Assembly: GCA_035506275.1 (NCBI GenBank) | Contig: DATJPT010000006.1 | Coordinates: 139,019-203,018, forward strand | DNA: 64,000 bases | Direction: 5' to 3' | Source of the DNA: Bacteroidota bacterium | GTDB taxonomy: Bacteria; Bacteroidota; Ignavibacteria; UBA10030; UBA8401 | Shown here: positions 50,143 to 55,852 of the stretch, one piece after another | Numbering within the stretch: the first letter of the stretch is position 1 | Layout: every line of letters begins with the position of its first letter | Position numbers and translations under genes: made by a program | The notes under the pieces: model-generated | Database searches by the model: none | What the model was told of the DNA's origin: nothing | What the model saw: the letters and a program-made list of their open reading frames with translations, nothing else

Positions 50143-51363
50143 TCAGATTTTATTCCACGAGAGGAATCGAATCGCGACAATGTCCCCTTTTGCGACTCGG
50201 TCTTGTTCTTTGGGAAGAACGATCAAACAATTTGCATCGGCAAGTCCGCCGATCATGTGGGAACCCTGCCTCGAAGCGGGCTTCACAGTTAACACGCCTT
50301 CTTTCGACCATGCCGCAAATGCACGAACGAATTCGATACGCCCGCTTGCTCCCTTAAGGTCGAAATCCATCACGGCGTCATGCAGCACGTCAGGAGTATA
50401 GCTCCCCATCATTTTCCGCAGCGCGGGCATCACCAGCGTTTCGAGAGAGACCATCGCCGATACTGGGTTTCCCGGCAGTCCGAAGATCAACTTTTTTCCT
50501 CTTGTTCCAAAAAAATTCGGTTTCCCGGGTTTCATCGCAACCCGCCAAAAAATCTTCCGTACCCGAAGATCGCTGAGAACCTCCTTCACAAAATCGAAGT
50601 CTCCGACCGACACTCCCCCCGCCGACAAAACAACGTCGGCGCTTTTCAGCGCCCGCGCGAACGCTTTCGTCAGTGTTCTCTTATTGTCTCCCGCATGCAG
50701 GACGAGAACCGGACGCACTCCCGCCGATTCCAGTGCGGCGGCGAGAGCGTAAGAATTGGAATCGCGGACCTGTCCGCGACGCAACGGCGACGAAGGGGAC
50801 CGGAGTTCATTGCCATTGACGACCAGCGCGATGCGGGGTTTGCGGTACACCTTGACCGACGTCAGACCAAGCGTCGCGCACATTCCAATGACGGGGGGAG
50901 TGATACACGCCCCTTTTTGAAACACAATTTCTCTCTTCGCGAATTCTTCTCCGCGCCGCCGGAGGCTTGCCCCTTCTTTCGCCGGCGAAGAAAAAATAAT
51001 TTCCTCTCCCCTCGCTTCGACCAATTCCTTCATGACGACGGCATCGGCTTTTTGAGGAAGGACGGCGCCGGTCATTATTTTTATCGCATGGAACGGTTTG
51101 AGTGACTGGTGCGGGGTAACCCCTGCGGAGACGACCGATTGCAATTTCAGACGCACGGGACGGAGTTCCGACGCATGCTGAACGTCCCGAACCTGGACAG
51201 CGTAACCGTCGACAGACGAAGAATCAAACAGCGGGATAGGCTCTCTTGCCTTGACCTCTTCGGCGAGAACGAAACCGAGCGCGTCCTCAAGAGGAAGTTT
51301 GACCGGCAGCGAGCGCCGCACGTGTTTCAGAATCTTTTCGAGCGCTTCATGAAATTCAAGCAT
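50143..51363 (-). CDS. moeA: Molybdopterin molybdenumtransferase
   Basis: MoeA inserts molybdate (or tungstate) into adenylated molybdopterin. The 406-residue chain has the usual plan: PLEDALGFVLAEEV and DSSSVDGYAV near the N-terminus, KIMTGAVLPQKADAVV at about 110, the MogA-like domain with LSAGGVSVGDFDFVKEVL and FGLPGNPVSAMVSLE at about 310, and a C-terminal beta-barrel domain. It is the downstream member of a region that also contains a moaC-moaB fusion at 54.9 kb. The six genes between them have no evident link to molybdenum. Confidence 0.95.
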   Translation of the reverse strand: MLEFHEALEKILKHVRRSLPVKLPLEDALGFVLAEEVKAREPIPLFDSSSVDGYAVQVRDVQHASELRPVRLKLQSVVSAGVTPHQSLKPFHAIKIMTGAVLPQKADAVVMKELVEARGEEIIFSSPAKEGASLRRRGEEFAKREIVFQKGACITPPVIGMCATLGLTSVKVYRKPRIALVVNGNELRSPSSPLRRGQVRDSNSYALAAALESAGVRPVLVLHAGDNKRTLTKAFARALKSADVVLSAGGVSVGDFDFVKEVLSDLRVRKIFWRVAMKPGKPNFFGTRGKKLIFGLPGNPVSAMVSLETLVMPALRKMMGSYTPDVLHDAVMDFDLKGASGRIEFVRAFAAWSKEGVLTVKPASRQGSHMIGGLADANCLIVLPKEQDRVAKGDIVAIRFLSWNKI

Positions 51364-51480: not shown

Positions 51481-51945
51481 TCAAGAATACTCTGTCGTTT
51501 TATCGCGGCGAGTTTCCGCCCCGTCGGAAATACTGTGCCGGTCCTGAAATGAAAGCCAAAGGCAGCAGATCAAAAGGACAAGATCCCTGAGAATGAGTCC
51601 AGGTCCGATCTTATCCGAACCGATGATGCCGAAGCACCCGCAATCGCCGGTCACGCCGCGGGCCAGAGCGACCGCGATCGCGGCGATAAACACAACGATC
51701 AGCCCCGCGAGGCAGGCGGCAACAACTCTCGTTCGATATCCGATGGCCAGCGCTAATCCAAGCCACAGCTCGCTTTGAAGGACAACAATCATTGCCGGGA
51801 AAATCATCCCTGCCGGCAGAATGCCGAGCTGCCGGATGGCGGCGAAAAAAGATCCTGTATCCAGCAGTTTGGAAACGCCGGCAACAACCATCAGGCTCCC
51901 CGTGAAAACGCGGAGCAACAATGATAAAAGGTTTCTACGCGCCAT
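51481..51945 (-). CDS. MauE/DoxX-family redox-associated membrane protein
   Basis: A 154-residue inner-membrane protein with four helices (about 8-27, 46-66, 72-96, 114-132). The MauE hallmarks are a conserved SELWLGLAL glutamate (E59) in the second helix and the periplasmic C-x-C pair GDCGCFG (C102, C104). MauE is needed for disulfide formation in methylamine dehydrogenase, and relatives accompany thioredoxin-like proteins. Here it is the last gene of the cassette that contains a redoxin and a six-cysteine peptide, which fits a disulfide-handling role. That role is inferred. Confidence 0.8.
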   Translation of the reverse strand: MARRNLLSLLLRVFTGSLMVVAGVSKLLDTGSFFAAIRQLGILPAGMIFPAMIVVLQSELWLGLALAIGYRTRVVAACLAGLIVVFIAAIAVALARGVTGDCGCFGIIGSDKIGPGLILRDLVLLICCLWLSFQDRHSISDGAETRRDKTTEYS

Positions 51946-51957
51946 CGCTCTGCCAAG

Positions 51958-52611
51958 TTATCCTATGCGGATGCCGAACGTTGTTCCCCCCATCAGCGAA
52001 GCGATCATTGCTGCCGAACCGACCCCGACGCCCCACAAGCATGTAACAATAACAGCAGCATTTCGTGACCGGATCCCGGTCATCGTCTTCAACCCGATTG
52101 ACATTGCCGAAAAATACCAAATGATGATCGGATTGACGCTGTATAAAACGATCGTCAACGGAAGGTTAAGATTGCGCCCGAGAAAAAGCACATCCAATCC
52201 GATCGGAAAACGTCCCGGCAAGCTGTACAAACTGATGGAAATCAAGTGAGAGCGCACCAGGATGAAATTTAGCATTTCGCCGATTAAAAAGATAATCCCG
52301 CAGAGAGAGACAAGGGAGAACATGTTTCCGTACGACACCTTTTTCACCGGATTAAACAACGGCGTTGAAAAAAATAATAACGCCGCCATGACTGACCAGA
52401 GGATGATCAAGGAGATAAAAACCGTAACAAAAGCGCCCCCGAAAACGATGAGATCGGCAGCGACCGAAGTCCCCCGCCAGCAGCTTTTCAGCCATGTCAA
52501 GAACGCGATTCCCGAGACGACAATAATAAGTGAGCGCTTCCATGTCGGCTGTAATGAGATCCGTTCAAAATTGTTCTGTCTTAGAGCTCCTGAAAATATT
52601 TTCGGCATCAT
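51958..52611 (-). CDS. Polytopic membrane protein, Yip1-like
   Basis: A 217-residue inner-membrane protein with five hydrophobic segments and a short cytoplasmic N-terminus (MMPKIFSGALRQNNF). The layout resembles the Yip1/YIP1-domain proteins of bacteria, but I see no diagnostic motif. There are two isolated cysteines in the mature chain. The ATG at 52611 follows GGAGGGG closely. It is 12 bases upstream of the MauE gene and 36 bases downstream of the WGMS-motif protein gene, so it is part of the same transcript. A transport or assembly role for the peptide cassette is only a guess. Confidence 0.6.
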   Translation of the reverse strand: MMPKIFSGALRQNNFERISLQPTWKRSLIIVVSGIAFLTWLKSCWRGTSVAADLIVFGGAFVTVFISLIILWSVMAALLFFSTPLFNPVKKVSYGNMFSLVSLCGIIFLIGEMLNFILVRSHLISISLYSLPGRFPIGLDVLFLGRNLNLPLTIVLYSVNPIIIWYFSAMSIGLKTMTGIRSRNAAVIVTCLWGVGVGSAAMIASLMGGTTFGIRIG

Positions 52612-52647
52612 TTCCCCTCCTAGAGTGTCTTTATCGACCGGCTGCAA

Positions 52648-53157
52648 TTATTGTTTAATTCTTCCGTACAAAAGACTCAGGCCGAGCACGTCTTCCCCCT
52701 GAGAAAAAACGACCATCACCACGCTCTCGCCTTTCAAAAACCATTTCGCCGCCTCAAAATGAATAGTGAAGAACCATTTGGACCTCTCTTTTTTTTCCGT
52801 TTCGTATGTATCCCCGTAACGGGACTTGAGGTACGACCGGAGCTTTTCGGCATTTTTGTCGTCGAACTGAATTTCAATGAATCGGAGTCCCTTAGCGCTG
52901 TCGGACTCCCCGAACGTCATCACGACCCGAACGGTCGAATCCATGAAGGTGTCCTGGAACGTCAGCGCAGTGTCGCCGCTCGGCTGGATGTCCTGATGAA
53001 TTTGCCGCTTGACTTCATCCTTGCTCATTCCCCAATGAACCGCCGACAACGACGGCACATCCGAGCCCGATAATGGGATCTGGCACTTCACAACCGTATA
53101 GGCGAGGAAACAACCGAGGGAAGCGAATGTTATTCCCCTTTTCATGCAGTGGCACAT
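52648..53157 (-). CDS. Exported protein of unknown function in the peptide cassette
   Basis: A 169-residue protein with an N-terminal hydrophobic segment (ITFASLGCFLAYTVV, residues 9-23) that may be a signal peptide or anchor. The body is an alpha/beta domain with SAVHWGMSKDEVKRQI at about 39, a phrase seen in several small periplasmic proteins, and FIEIQFDDKNAEKL later. GGGAGGGAG precedes the ATG at 53157. It lies just past the terminator that follows the peptide gene, so it is expressed by readthrough or its own promoter. No function can be named. Confidence 0.65.
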   Translation of the reverse strand: MCHCMKRGITFASLGCFLAYTVVKCQIPLSGSDVPSLSAVHWGMSKDEVKRQIHQDIQPSGDTALTFQDTFMDSTVRVVMTFGESDSAKGLRFIEIQFDDKNAEKLRSYLKSRYGDTYETEKKERSKWFFTIHFEAAKWFLKGESVVMVVFSQGEDVLGLSLLYGRIKQ

Positions 53158-53202: not shown

Positions 53203-53241
53203 CAAAAAAAGCAGCTGCCCTTCCGTACCTGAAAGGGCAGC
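53203..53241 (-). terminator. Strong terminator directly after the peptide gene
   Basis: GCTGCCCTT (53214-53222) pairs with AAGGGCAGC (53233-53241), and the minus strand continues GCTTTTTTTGC. It starts seven bases after the peptide stop codon. It should make the redoxin-C39-peptide transcript more abundant than the genes behind it. Confidence 0.85.
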
Positions 53242-53247
53242 AGGCAA

Positions 53248-53472
53248 CTACGCTAAGAAAGGAATGTAGGCGCAAATGCAGATCTGAGCGATCCAGAGGT
53301 CCAGGCAGCAGCAGGCGAAGCCCATGGAAGAATTGCACCCCGATTTCCCTCCGGAGATCTGAGCCATCTCATCCGAATTCAGCTGGACCGAGCCGTTCGA
53401 TTGAACGCCGACCGGCCCCAACAGCGTCAATGCGATCAGAAACACCATGAATAACGAAATTGCTTTTTTCAT
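53248..53472 (-). CDS. Six-cysteine secreted peptide precursor with double-glycine leader end
   Basis: A 74-residue precursor. Residues 1-24 look like a Sec signal (KKAISLFMVFLIALTLLG). Residues 31-42 (LNSDEMAQISGG) match the end of a bacteriocin-type leader, with G41-G42 at the expected cut. The remaining 32 residues contain cysteines 46, 54, 55, 56, 65 and 67 in an otherwise hydrophobic chain. GGGGGAG precedes the ATG, and a terminator follows, which supports a well-expressed gene. The adjacent upstream gene encodes a C39 peptidase, the class that cuts after double glycine. I infer a matured, disulfide-rich peptide; activity is unknown. Confidence 0.8.
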   Translation of the reverse strand: MKKAISLFMVFLIALTLLGPVGVQSNGSVQLNSDEMAQISGGKSGCNSSMGFACCCLDLWIAQICICAYIPFLA

Positions 53473-53622
53473 AACTCCCCCTTTTTGGTTGAATTTTCCT
53501 TTTGTGAATTATTTCCTGCTCACCGCGGGCTGTTCATTCCGCACAAAACTCACCGCACGCTGCAGCGCCCGAGCCGCAGAGCGCTGTGACTGTTCGTCCG
53601 GTCAAAACCGGCGAGCAAGATC

Positions 53623-54150
53623 TTATTCCTTTCTGAACACCAAAGCTTCCCCGTTCCATACTCCGGGCAACTCCGATACCGGCAGTTTTATTCTCCCGAC
53701 GGCGGGGTCGCGTAAAAAGACATTGCCGGAGCCAACGCTGTCCGCAACAACAAAATGATTCTTGGGGATGAAGAGAATTGCCGGAAACTGCGCGGTCAAA
53801 AAATCTTGCAGCCTCAACCGCCATCCCTCGGCGTGCAGTCCCTTCGCTTCGGCCAGGTCTCGGAGCGCGAGCATCGTGGAACCGTTCACTCCCGGTTTGA
53901 GCCGCCGCGTCAACTCGCCGACCGTGCTGGGAATCTCATATCGATCGAGAACCATCTGCAGCGATGCAGGGGCGCAGTCATTGTAGCTCGTTTGCATGAC
54001 GACCCCGACATTCCCCAGATATTCGCCGCCGGCATACGAGTCCGGCATTTTTTGTCCCGCAAAACGAGGGAGAAGGATCCAGGATGAATTGACGACAAAG
54101 ACTGCGGAGAGCACGCAGAAGATTCCAAGACAACGATTCCAGCTCACCAT
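53623..54150 (-). CDS. Stand-alone membrane-anchored C39-type peptidase
   Basis: A 175-residue protein with one N-terminal membrane segment (LGIFCVLSAVFVVNSSW, about 8-24) and a C39 peptidase domain facing the periplasm. The catalytic set is complete: Q53, C59 (TSYNDCAPASLQ), H132 (KNHFVVAD) and D148 (FLRDPAVG). C39 domains usually form the N-terminus of bacteriocin ABC exporters on the cytoplasmic side; here there is no transporter or ATPase. I start at the ATG at 54150; the frame is open further up but overlaps the redoxin gene. It is 16 bases after redoxin and 150 before the peptide gene. Confidence 0.85.
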   Translation of the reverse strand: MVSWNRCLGIFCVLSAVFVVNSSWILLPRFAGQKMPDSYAGGEYLGNVGVVMQTSYNDCAPASLQMVLDRYEIPSTVGELTRRLKPGVNGSTMLALRDLAEAKGLHAEGWRLRLQDFLTAQFPAILFIPKNHFVVADSVGSGNVFLRDPAVGRIKLPVSELPGVWNGEALVFRKE

Positions 54151-54166
54151 CCCCCCGCCCCTTCTT

Positions 54167-54703
54167 TTATTCGCGTGAAGAAAAGACAAAATCGTCGAGA
54201 AGCCGGGCATCTTCTGCCAGCGAATGCTCCCCGGAATAGAATCTTTGCAGCAGCCAACATTCGTCGGCACAGAAAAGAGCCGGAAGAATATGTATTCTGT
54301 AATGTTCTCTGAGGCTGTCTGCGTCGGCTATAACGACAGGAAAATTCAGGCCCAATTCGGCGACCGCCGCCTTCGTCGAGCTGCCGTTGTCGAGCGAGAC
54401 CCCGAAAATATCAAGCCTTCCGGCATAGCGAGGGAGAAGTGCGGCAAGGTTGGCCAGTTCCCGGCGGCAATGGCTGCATGCCGGCGCGAAGAATACCACC
54501 AGCCTTTTTTTCGACGATGCGCTGTCGAACGCGAACGGGCGGTTCTCCAAAGAGACCGCAGCGATTCTTGGCATTGGGCTTCCGAGCGGTAAAGGGGGGA
54601 GGGCAAAAATGCGAAAAAGAAAAATCGTCGATCCGGCAAGAGCAACACACAATGCAGCGAACAAAACTGCGGCGCGCGCTTTACGGCGAAAAGATATTTG
54701 CAT
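54167..54703 (-). CDS. Membrane-anchored TlpA/redoxin-like thiol oxidoreductase
   Basis: A 178-residue thioredoxin-fold protein with an N-terminal helix (VLFAALCVALAGSTIFLF, about 13-30) and the domain in the periplasm. The redox centre is C76-S-H-C79 (FFAPACSHCRREL). The later FGVSLDNGSSTKAAV and a cis-proline loop (IHILPALF) complete the TlpA/MauD-like fold. Two more cysteines (FCADECW) occur near 144-148. It is the first gene of the peptide cassette. It may form, reduce or shuffle disulfides in the six-cysteine peptide, with MauE as membrane partner; this is inference from context. Confidence 0.85.
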   Translation of the reverse strand: MQISFRRKARAAVLFAALCVALAGSTIFLFRIFALPPLPLGSPMPRIAAVSLENRPFAFDSASSKKRLVVFFAPACSHCRRELANLAALLPRYAGRLDIFGVSLDNGSSTKAAVAELGLNFPVVIADADSLREHYRIHILPALFCADECWLLQRFYSGEHSLAEDARLLDDFVFSSRE

Positions 54704-54787: not shown

Positions 54788-54816
54788 AAGATAACTGTAA
54801 TGCTCAGGTTTGTCAA
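54788..54816 (-). promoter_or_regulatory. Sigma-70 type promoter of the peptide cassette
   Basis: The minus strand has TTGACA (54816-54811), exactly 17 bases, then TATCTT (54793-54788). The -35 box is perfect and the -10 box matches four of six. The start would lie near 54780, leaving a leader of about 75 bases that includes the palindrome at 54720. Confidence 0.6.
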
Positions 54817-54864: not shown

Positions 54865-55773
54865 TCAATGACCGCCGCCGCGGACGATGGAAGCGATATG
54901 CATCAGCGTCGGAAGAAGCGCATCGAGCCCGTCGGTGACGCCCCCTTTCGATCCGGGAAAACTAACGATGATGGTTTTGCCGCGGACGCCGGCCACGCTG
55001 CGCGACAGCATCGCGAGCGGAGTGCGTGCCTGTCCGAACACCCGCGCCGCCTCCGACACTCCGGGGATTTCTTTTTCAATGATTTTTTTGATCACTTCCG
55101 GGGTGGTGTCGCGCGGGCCGAGTCCGGTGCCGCCTGTCGTGAACACGGCATCGAGCTTCATTGTGTCGGAATACTGCAGCAGCTTCGCTTCAATTTTTTT
55201 TGCGTCGTCGGGAATGACGGCATACTCGGCGACGTTAACGTTCAACGCCTTCAGCCGCTCCACGATGACCTTTCCGGACACATCTTCTTTCTTCCCCGAC
55301 GAGACCGAATCCGACATTACGAGGACGGCCGCGCGAAACCCCGCACCGGTTACCTTGACAAAATCCGATTTCCCCCCTTTCTTGCTGACGAGCTTCACGC
55401 CGAGGATCTCCATTCCATCATCCAGCATCTTCATCATATCGTAGAGCGTCAAAGCGGCAACGGAAGCCCCGGTCAGCGCTTCCATCTCGACGCCGGTTTT
55501 GTAAATCGCCTTCACCCGAACTGTGGCGGTGATCGCTGTCTCGCCGACCTCAAATTCGACGCCGACAAAGTCGATCGGAAGCGGATGACAGTACGGGATG
55601 ATCTGGCTCGTGTTCTTGGCAGCCTGGATCGCGGCTACTTTCGCTACCTCAAGCGGGTTTCCCTTGGGGATCTTATTCTCCCGGATGAGGGTGACCGTCG
55701 CCGCGGAAACGCGCAAGGTTGCCGTAGCGACCGCAGTGCGGAGCGTCGTTATTTTTTGTGAAATGTCGCGCAT
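54865..55773 (-). CDS. moaCB: Bifunctional molybdenum cofactor protein: MoaC fused to MoaB/MogA
   Basis: A 302-residue fusion. Residues 1-145 are MoaC, which with MoaA makes cyclic pyranopterin monophosphate: IPYCHPLPID (about 59-68) and MEALTGASVAALTLYDM-type wording with VEMEALTG are diagnostic. Residues 150-302 are MoaB/Mog, which adenylates molybdopterin: FTTGGTGLGPRDTTPE at about 215 and the late IIVSFPGSKGGVTDGL. I start at the ATG at 55773 (MRDISQK); a GTG four codons earlier lies inside an inverted repeat. It is followed after 160 bases by the peptide cassette and then, at 51.4 kb, by moeA. Confidence 0.93.
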   Translation of the reverse strand: MRDISQKITTLRTAVATATLRVSAATVTLIRENKIPKGNPLEVAKVAAIQAAKNTSQIIPYCHPLPIDFVGVEFEVGETAITATVRVKAIYKTGVEMEALTGASVAALTLYDMMKMLDDGMEILGVKLVSKKGGKSDFVKVTGAGFRAAVLVMSDSVSSGKKEDVSGKVIVERLKALNVNVAEYAVIPDDAKKIEAKLLQYSDTMKLDAVFTTGGTGLGPRDTTPEVIKKIIEKEIPGVSEAARVFGQARTPLAMLSRSVAGVRGKTIIVSFPGSKGGVTDGLDALLPTLMHIASIVRGGGH

Positions 55774-55780
55774 ATGTTTT

Positions 55781-55852
55781 GCCACGAAGGCACGAAGCGG
55801 CAGACGTGATGCAGATTCAACAACCCTCGTTGTGCCTTAGTGTCCTTGCGGC
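55781..55852. repeat. Imperfect inverted repeat of the 'CACGAAGGCACGAAG' type
   Basis: GCCACGAAGGCACGAAG (55781-55797) is roughly complementary to a stretch at 55828-55852 (CGTTGTGCCTTAGTGTCCTT). Repeats of this wording are scattered in many bacterial genomes. It occupies the gap between moaCB and the M16 gene behind it. Confidence 0.55.

Follow-up and report, generated by a model that had tools for sequence, protein, structure and literature searches.

The 64-kb window, which is the whole stretch of DNA that was analysed, carries a gene for a small precursor peptide together with genes for a redoxin and a stand-alone C39 peptidase. These genes probably represent a new system of Ignavibacteria and Acidobacteriota, in which a double-glycine peptide would be exported by Sec, cut by a C39 peptidase in the periplasm and provided with disulfides with the assistance of the redoxin. 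In Ignavibacteria, the system would be coupled to a new family of pseudoknotted 5´-leader RNA that marks and controls the peptide genes. This reading is built on how the genes are linked, on the grammar of the leaders, on a topology judged from charge, on the catalytic residues, and on the structure and position of the RNA. Among the papers searched, none was found that describes this set of genes or connects an RNA of this type with bacteriocins.

The locus and its precursor peptide

The cluster is located on the minus strand and begins with the redoxin gene (54703..54167), which encodes a membrane-anchored thioredoxin fold with a CSHC motif. A promoter-like TTGACA-17-TATCTT sequence, which is a consensus match only, lies 5´ of this gene (54816..54788, minus strand). 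The gene for the C39 (double-glycine) peptidase with one N-terminal transmembrane segment (54150..53623; 175 aa) is followed by a structured RNA element (53619..53512), a long interrupted hairpin located 39 nt 5´ of the start codon of the 74-aa precursor peptide (53472..53248). An intrinsic terminator with an 11-bp stem and T7 (53241..53214, minus strand) is positioned immediately 3´ of the peptide gene. Three further minus-strand genes encode 'DUF', a predicted secreted protein of a family without a name (53157..52648), a YknW-like Yip1-domain membrane protein and candidate immunity component (52647..51958), and a MauE/DoxX-family membrane protein with a GDCGCFG motif (51945..51481). The flanking genes encode MoaC-like (55785..54865) and MoeA-like (51363..50143) proteins, named from reading the sequence. 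No ABC exporter was found among the ORFs around the locus, and the locus revealed no dedicated exit through the outer membrane. Elsewhere in the window (49321-46088, minus strand), a 1077-aa secreted repeat protein bears a C-terminal sorting domain of the FPNPFNPSTTIQYGLP type, as in type IX secretion cargo. A match to the HDV-F-prausnitzii ribozyme (53214-53283, plus strand; 27.6 bits against a gathering cut-off of 44) overlaps the terminator and the 3´ end of the peptide gene and was dismissed as chance.

The precursor (MKKAISLFMVFLIALTLLGPVGVQSNGSVQLNSDEMAQISGG/KSGCNSSMGFACCCLDLWIAQICICAYIPFLA) consists of a predicted Sec signal at approximately residues 1–25, a leader that ends with Gly41-Gly42, and a 32-aa core (residues 43–74) with six Cys residues. 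The Sec signal was judged from its n-, h- and c-regions and charge. It is followed by QLNSDEMAQISGG, which places hydrophobic residues at -12, -7 and -4 before the double glycine. At the predicted cleavage junction, the leader stretch NGSVQLNSDEMAQISGG precedes a core that starts from Lys43 (KSG...). The leader residues Leu-12, Glu-8, Met-7, Ile-4, Gly-2 and Gly-1 form a canonical C39 leader end; C39 peptidases read hydrophobic leader positions and the double glycine, and positions -12, -7, -4, -2 and -1 fit that grammar (PMC10885120). The precursor thus carries the C39-type leader of class II bacteriocins, and it falls below the curated bacteriocin models (TIGR01847, 13.2 vs 15.7 bits; PF10439, 12.8 vs 27.1 bits). 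The NVEALA leader motif is absent from the precursor sequence, which sets it apart from the NVEALA-type clusters of Bacteroides.

The peptidase matches the C39 domain model (PF03412, 87.3 bits against a cut-off of 22; E 1e-24). The ATG at 54150 is its likely start, because a start at 54270 would make the ORF longer and overlap the redoxin gene. Gln53, Cys59, His132 and Asp148 provide all the catalytic residues. In an alignment of 13 C39 sequences, the Gln, Cys and His are invariant and the Asp is present in at least 90%. Among solved structures, the peptidase of the window is closest to the peptidase domains of exporters (6mpz, E 4e-26). In PCATs, the C39 domain is fused to an ABC transporter; the window ORF comprises only 175 aa. 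Neither an exporter-borne (PCAT-type) nor a second C39 was matched by the C39 model anywhere in the genome of the window, and the same model detects PCATs in the genomes of many relatives. The redoxin has an AhpC/TSA fold (PF00578, 42.9 bits) with an ACSHC motif and a hydrophobic N-terminal anchor. Across the related loci described below, 46 of 49 C39 peptidases and 39 of 45 redoxins have a higher net charge before the transmembrane segment than after it. Because of this charge pattern, an N-in orientation with the catalytic domain outside the inner membrane is predicted for both proteins. MauE matches PF07291 with 82.7 bits (cut-off 27).

These ORFs match the set described in the initial annotation, and its observation as a whole is confirmed: the 74-aa precursor with a Sec-type signal, a bacteriocin-like leader end and a six-Cys 32-aa core, the adjacent CSHC redoxin, the stand-alone C39 with all catalytic residues, and the lack of an ABC exporter. 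Its placement of the C39 and the redoxin outside the inner membrane agrees with the predicted topology and with a genome that shows no exporter-borne C39. The span that it gave (53248-54703) starts correctly at the redoxin gene but stops short of DUF, Yip1 and MauE, which extend the locus to 51481. Its gene content was correct for redoxin, C39 and peptide, and overlooked the YknW-like gene, DUF, the structured RNA, and a variant with an ABC transporter described below.

Recurrence and partners in other genomes

The family comprises 49 loci from Ignavibacteria, Acidobacteriota and one Poribacteria, of which the Acidobacteriota loci and the single Poribacteria locus were supplied by a scan of GTDB contigs. 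The stand-alone C39 was found in 12 of the 60 nearest genomes. Three more loci (L141-L143) with other types of C39 are outside this set. The redoxin gene is directly upstream of the C39 gene in 45 of 49 loci; among the other four, one is truncated at the end of its contig. All of these upstream redoxins except that of L015 contain CxxC. The gene order redoxin-C39-peptide is common to the Ignavibacteria families and the Acidobacteriota. The initial annotation would have been undermined by loss of the peptide in relatives that keep the C39 and redoxin genes; since the arrangement recurs in other genomes, the peptide is conserved there instead.

A class-wide search separates the family C39s (E <1e-40; open frames mostly 170–250 aa) from the peptidase domains of PCATs (E 1e-28 to 1e-14; mostly 720–760 aa) by a gap in score. 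In a maximum-likelihood tree, the redoxin-associated C39s and the PCAT domains are placed on opposite sides of a branch with 96/93 support. The FapD-like C39 of L143 and two C39s of Bacteroidota share the redoxin-associated side, and a single clade of redoxin-associated C39s is not rejected (p-AU 0.57). A Bacteroidota genome (L149:7951-8097) contains a small ORF (MQLSDEQLDGVSG...) with four Cys residues and no signal peptide in the vicinity of a stand-alone C39; no redoxin is present there.

A strict rule was used to search for precursors: a positive n-region, a 12-residue hydrophobic stretch, the C39 leader positions, at least two Cys residues and a core of 20–75 aa. The precursor is the sole ORF of the whole window that qualifies. 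Over 52 C39 loci, 28 ORFs (27 loci) qualify in the 72.8 kb downstream of C39, compared with one ORF in 1.16 Mb elsewhere in the same loci, which is a density ratio of ~447. Visual inspection often reveals a precursor in loci that fail the rule, such as L017, L018, L019 and L022, and Sec-like N-termini are present on the precursors throughout the loci examined.

The leaders persist between loci and the cores diverge strongly. The six-Cys core of this type occurs in three loci (the window, L016 and L140), all of which belong to a group with the motif CC-x-[DNS]-[LFI]-W whose other six members have four. The remaining loci mostly have 2–6 Cys residues in unrelated, often Gly-rich cores. The six-Cys core emphasized at first thus holds for the window and represents a sub-type rather than a rule of the family. 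Core lengths range from ~26 to 71 aa with no evident amyloid repeats. In Acidobacteriota, the cores are hydrophobic and rich in Gly and Ala, and most of them have two Cys residues located towards the ends. In six Acidobacteriota loci (L047, L049, L052, L054, L059 and L065), a single C39 is followed downstream by a tandem set of two or three distinct Sec/GG-like precursors with Gly/Ala-rich cores, which makes multi-peptide systems possible. Terminator-like sites follow the peptide gene in 7 of the 22 loci examined, and a terminator as a general feature was dropped for this reason.

The other partners vary between loci. MauE with the CGCF motif is confined to some of the Ignavibacteria loci, so the redoxin/MauE pair of the initial annotation is present in the window without being general. 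Yip1 is present in most loci, and in Acidobacteriota it is located several kilobases downstream. The window Yip1 (PF04893, 30.9 bits) reaches 20.4 bits with the YknW model NF052650 (cut-off 110), compared with 82.4 bits (E 3e-23) for its homologue in L019; the window protein is a distant relative of YknW and not a member of that family. A role of the YknW-like protein in immunity is plausible. Two versions of the locus were observed. The first contains DUF and Yip1 (the window, L016, L023, L131, L136-L140 and others), and DUF is the regular partner in Ignavibacteria loci without an ABC transporter. The second contains a DrrA-like ABC ATPase, two further proteins and Yip1 (L018 and L019). No Pfam or NCBIfam model matches DUF. 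An HMM built for it identifies nine loci, and these are precisely the loci whose peptide belongs to the CC-x-[DNS]-[LFI]-W group; a further match, in L025, is marginal. Profile comparison with hhalign links DUF to proteins at the corresponding place in other loci (E 9e-6). The AlphaFold model of DUF has a pLDDT of 77.6, and its best PDB matches, EagT6 and DcrB, are insignificant (E 0.03–0.04, TM ~0.3).

A structured RNA element upstream of the peptide gene

In many loci, the C39-peptide spacer is ~150 nt in length and folds as one long hairpin. The element within it measures ~108 nt and was found in 24 distinct Ignavibacteria loci. In an alignment of 17 sequences that was built without reference to structure (A3), 88.6% of the cells pair and two-sided changes occur in 30 of 38 pairs. 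None of 500 shuffles reaches any of these measures, and the paired cells are halved when the partner is slid by one column. A structured RNA almost certainly exists here. The covariance model R1 scores 74.4 bits at the window element and recovers 23 elements among the loci examined; the window is itself one of these loci (L014), which leaves 22 distinct elements. Five of the recovered elements (L017, L020, L022, L025 and L133) are outside the training set. In L133 (8100-8466), the element is followed by a precursor with ACG as the start codon and a shifted frame, which is either a defective copy or the result of misassembly.

The terminal loop of the hairpin is complementary to a six-base 3´ bulge over at least 5 bases in all 24 loci. 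In the window, CGGGC in the loop (53567-53571, minus strand) pairs with GCCCG in the bulge (53526-53530, minus strand), and these halves covary across the 24 loci, with the loop/bulge variants CGGCCC/GGGCCG, CUGUCC/GGACAG, GGCUCC/GGAGCC, CGGGC/GCCCG, UGGGC/GCCCA and CGGUCC/GGACCG. When bulges are permuted among loci, none of 20,000 permutations does as well as the observed complementarity, which points to a possible loop-bulge pseudoknot. The loop and the bulge are approximately equidistant from a central 3x3 internal loop, and a hairpin folded back at this hinge would join them.

The element is located 22–66 nt from the start codon, mostly 31–47 nt, in a constant orientation across the 24 distinct loci. 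It stays with the peptide gene and not with the C39 gene in L017, L018 and L132. A class-wide genome scan with the RNA model adds two peptide loci, in G056 and G044, that have no adjacent C39; in both, a redoxin precedes the element and a Sec peptide follows it after 42–45 nt. The minus strand of L171 shows a redoxin, the element and a Sec/GG peptide. G044 and G056 share a genus (g27). In G044, a C39 persists at a distance of 49 kb, and ..LTQAEMDCIVGG is preserved in the peptide. In G056 (L169:1501-1953), the leader ends with CLAGA instead of a double glycine and may be of a GA type, and no C39 match at E<=1 was found anywhere in the genome. Judged from this one genus pair, the apparent co-loss of C39 and double glycine would run in the direction predicted by cleavage at the double glycine.

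No family of Rfam release 15 matches the element above its gathering cut-off, and Rfam families likewise include structured RNAs in the 5´ leader position. A phylum-wide scan detected the element in 2 of 247 genomes, both inside the class. The Acidobacteriota loci contain no R1 match, and an analogous RNA was rejected there, with a median upstream folding z of -0.8 vs -3.9 in Ignavibacteria. The RNA appears inessential to the pathway, because it is undetected in these loci. A dispersed repeat is ruled out by the single copy per locus, and a coding sequence by lengths that vary by non-multiples of three and by abundant pair changes on both sides. The contig end of a relative of the same genus (L016:24-97) matches the group II intron family of Rfam (RF00029, 53.6 bits).

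Proposed route, alternatives and relation to known systems

We hold with moderate confidence that these genes form a maturation system for a secreted peptide, probably one resembling a bacteriocin toxin. The route itself, with Sec export, redoxin action on cysteines and periplasmic C39 cleavage, is likely. The precursor would cross the inner membrane by Sec and lose its signal peptide. In the periplasm, the redoxin, together with MauE where present, would act on the core cysteines; the precedent of MauD/MauE makes disulfide formation or shuffling the most probable action, and the redoxin could serve as a reductant or isomerase rather than as an oxidant. The anchored C39 would then cut after the double glycine and free the core. 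The short, Cys-bearing core is envisaged to attack the envelope of competing cells, from which the YknW-like Yip1 and the secreted DUF, or an ABC-2-like transporter, would shield the producer. An antibacterial function is somewhat favoured, because the cores are short, hydrophobic and fast-diverging and Yip1 falls in the broad family of YknW. The RNA, in the 5´ leader of the peptide gene, would set peptide output apart from redoxin-C39, most simply through mRNA protection or processing. We tentatively prefer an intercistronic cis element that lets the peptide mRNA outlast the redoxin-C39 mRNA; in the window, the strong terminator would close the same short transcript.

An ordinary double-glycine bacteriocin exported by a PCAT, with an incidental hydrophobic N-terminus and the stand-alone C39 as a helper, would also account for the leader grammar and for the homology of this C39 to PCAT peptidase domains. 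It is highly improbable in view of a genome without a PCAT-type match to a model that finds PCATs in many relatives, the Sec-like N-termini throughout, the N-in charge pattern of a C39 with its own transmembrane segment, and a tree that parts stand-alone C39s from PCAT domains. Only slightly less improbable is that the peptide serves as a subunit or activator of surface fibres in a Fap/Fil-like system, with the C39 in the role of FapD. The FapD-like C39 of L143 is on the same side of the tree and its neighbours bear Sec signals and double-glycine leaders, but reading the ORFs beside the window locus revealed no fibre subunits or porin, and thus no fap operon with amyloid subunits and FapF, the neighbours being MoaC/MoeA-like genes, DUF, Yip1 and MauE. 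The window protein also scores 29.1 bits against the NCBIfam FapD equivalog cut-off of 330, and the short cores lack evident amyloid repeats.

The same Sec-C39-redoxin route may instead deliver a non-toxin peptide that acts in signalling, metal binding or envelope stress, with Yip1 or the ABC transporter as a receptor or recycler. The immunity role of Yip1 is putative, and the window MauE shows a weak likeness to HvfX (27.3 bits, cut-off 80), a maturation protein of Cu-binding RiPPs. This alternative is unlikely given the strong divergence of cores behind kept leaders, the Acidobacteriota cores, whose Gly/Ala-rich sequences with two Cys residues near the ends are unlike a metal site, and the link of Yip1 to YknW. 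For the RNA, a separate trans-acting molecule, or a DNA-level recombination hairpin that swaps peptide cassettes, would fit the exchanged appearance of peptide cores among relatives and a loop complementary to a bulge, as in kissing or folded-strand systems. The tight spacing to the start codon, the constant orientation, the single undispersed copy per locus and the loci in which the element follows the peptide and not the C39 make this rather unlikely, and favour the cis-acting leader.

A C39 that works in the periplasm has a precedent in FapD of the Pseudomonas Fap amyloid system, which has a Sec signal; the Fap proteins lack canonical C39 sequences and the target of FapD is unclear (PMC5557850). 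The interpretation of the initial annotation is therefore supported in part: the Sec-like signal, the double-glycine leader, the predicted outside location of C39 and redoxin and the absence of an exporter-borne C39 stand, and a periplasmic C39 is not in itself new. The Fap system and the one predicted here share a stand-alone C39 outside the inner membrane, Sec export and the lack of an ABC transporter; a redoxin, a small Cys peptide, Yip1 and an RNA are not known to us from the Fap system. In L143 (910-2503), genes for two larger proteins flank that of the FapD-like C39, and both proteins carry a Sec signal and a double-glycine leader, LTGEQLNGLTGG and VSDQELDGMRGG. Their sequences suggest candidate substrates of FapD-type enzymes, and periplasmic C39s may more widely be associated with the combination of Sec and double glycine.

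In comparison with class II double-glycine bacteriocins that use a PCAT, the leader grammar, core size, Gly-rich hydrophobic cores and Cys residues are shared, whereas the route predicted here is Sec rather than ABC, with a separate protease outside the membrane. YknW, a Yip1 protein, assists an efflux pump that protects Bacillus from SDP, a disulfide-bonded peptide of 42 aa (PMC4887032). The likeness to SDP (SdpC) and YknWXYZ covers a small peptide of similar size, with disulfides that are predicted here, and a Yip1-family partner in the protective machinery, and not a relationship of peptide sequence. For the maturation of SDP, neither a C39 step nor a double-glycine step is known to us. MauE and MauD belong to methylamine dehydrogenase maturation. 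In the parts of the work consulted, MauE, and MauD in one RiPP family, also stand beside Cys-rich precursors in predicted Streptomyces RiPP clusters, and those parts mention no C39 step, Sec/double-glycine precursor or RNA (PMC7794033).

Since 30 of 38 pairs show compensatory changes and the loop and bulge can form a pseudoknot, the RNA is a strong candidate for a new family; used by itself, its model also found peptide loci missed by the C39 search. If the proposed route is correct, double-glycine peptides can dispense with a dedicated ABC exporter, their leader grammar is usable after Sec export, and oxidation and cleavage both take place outside the membrane. FapD-like periplasmic C39 enzymes would gain a clear candidate type of substrate, and the disulfide-rich peptides of largely uncultured environmental bacteria would be findable by a simple rule, a Sec signal plus a C39 leader beside redoxin-C39.
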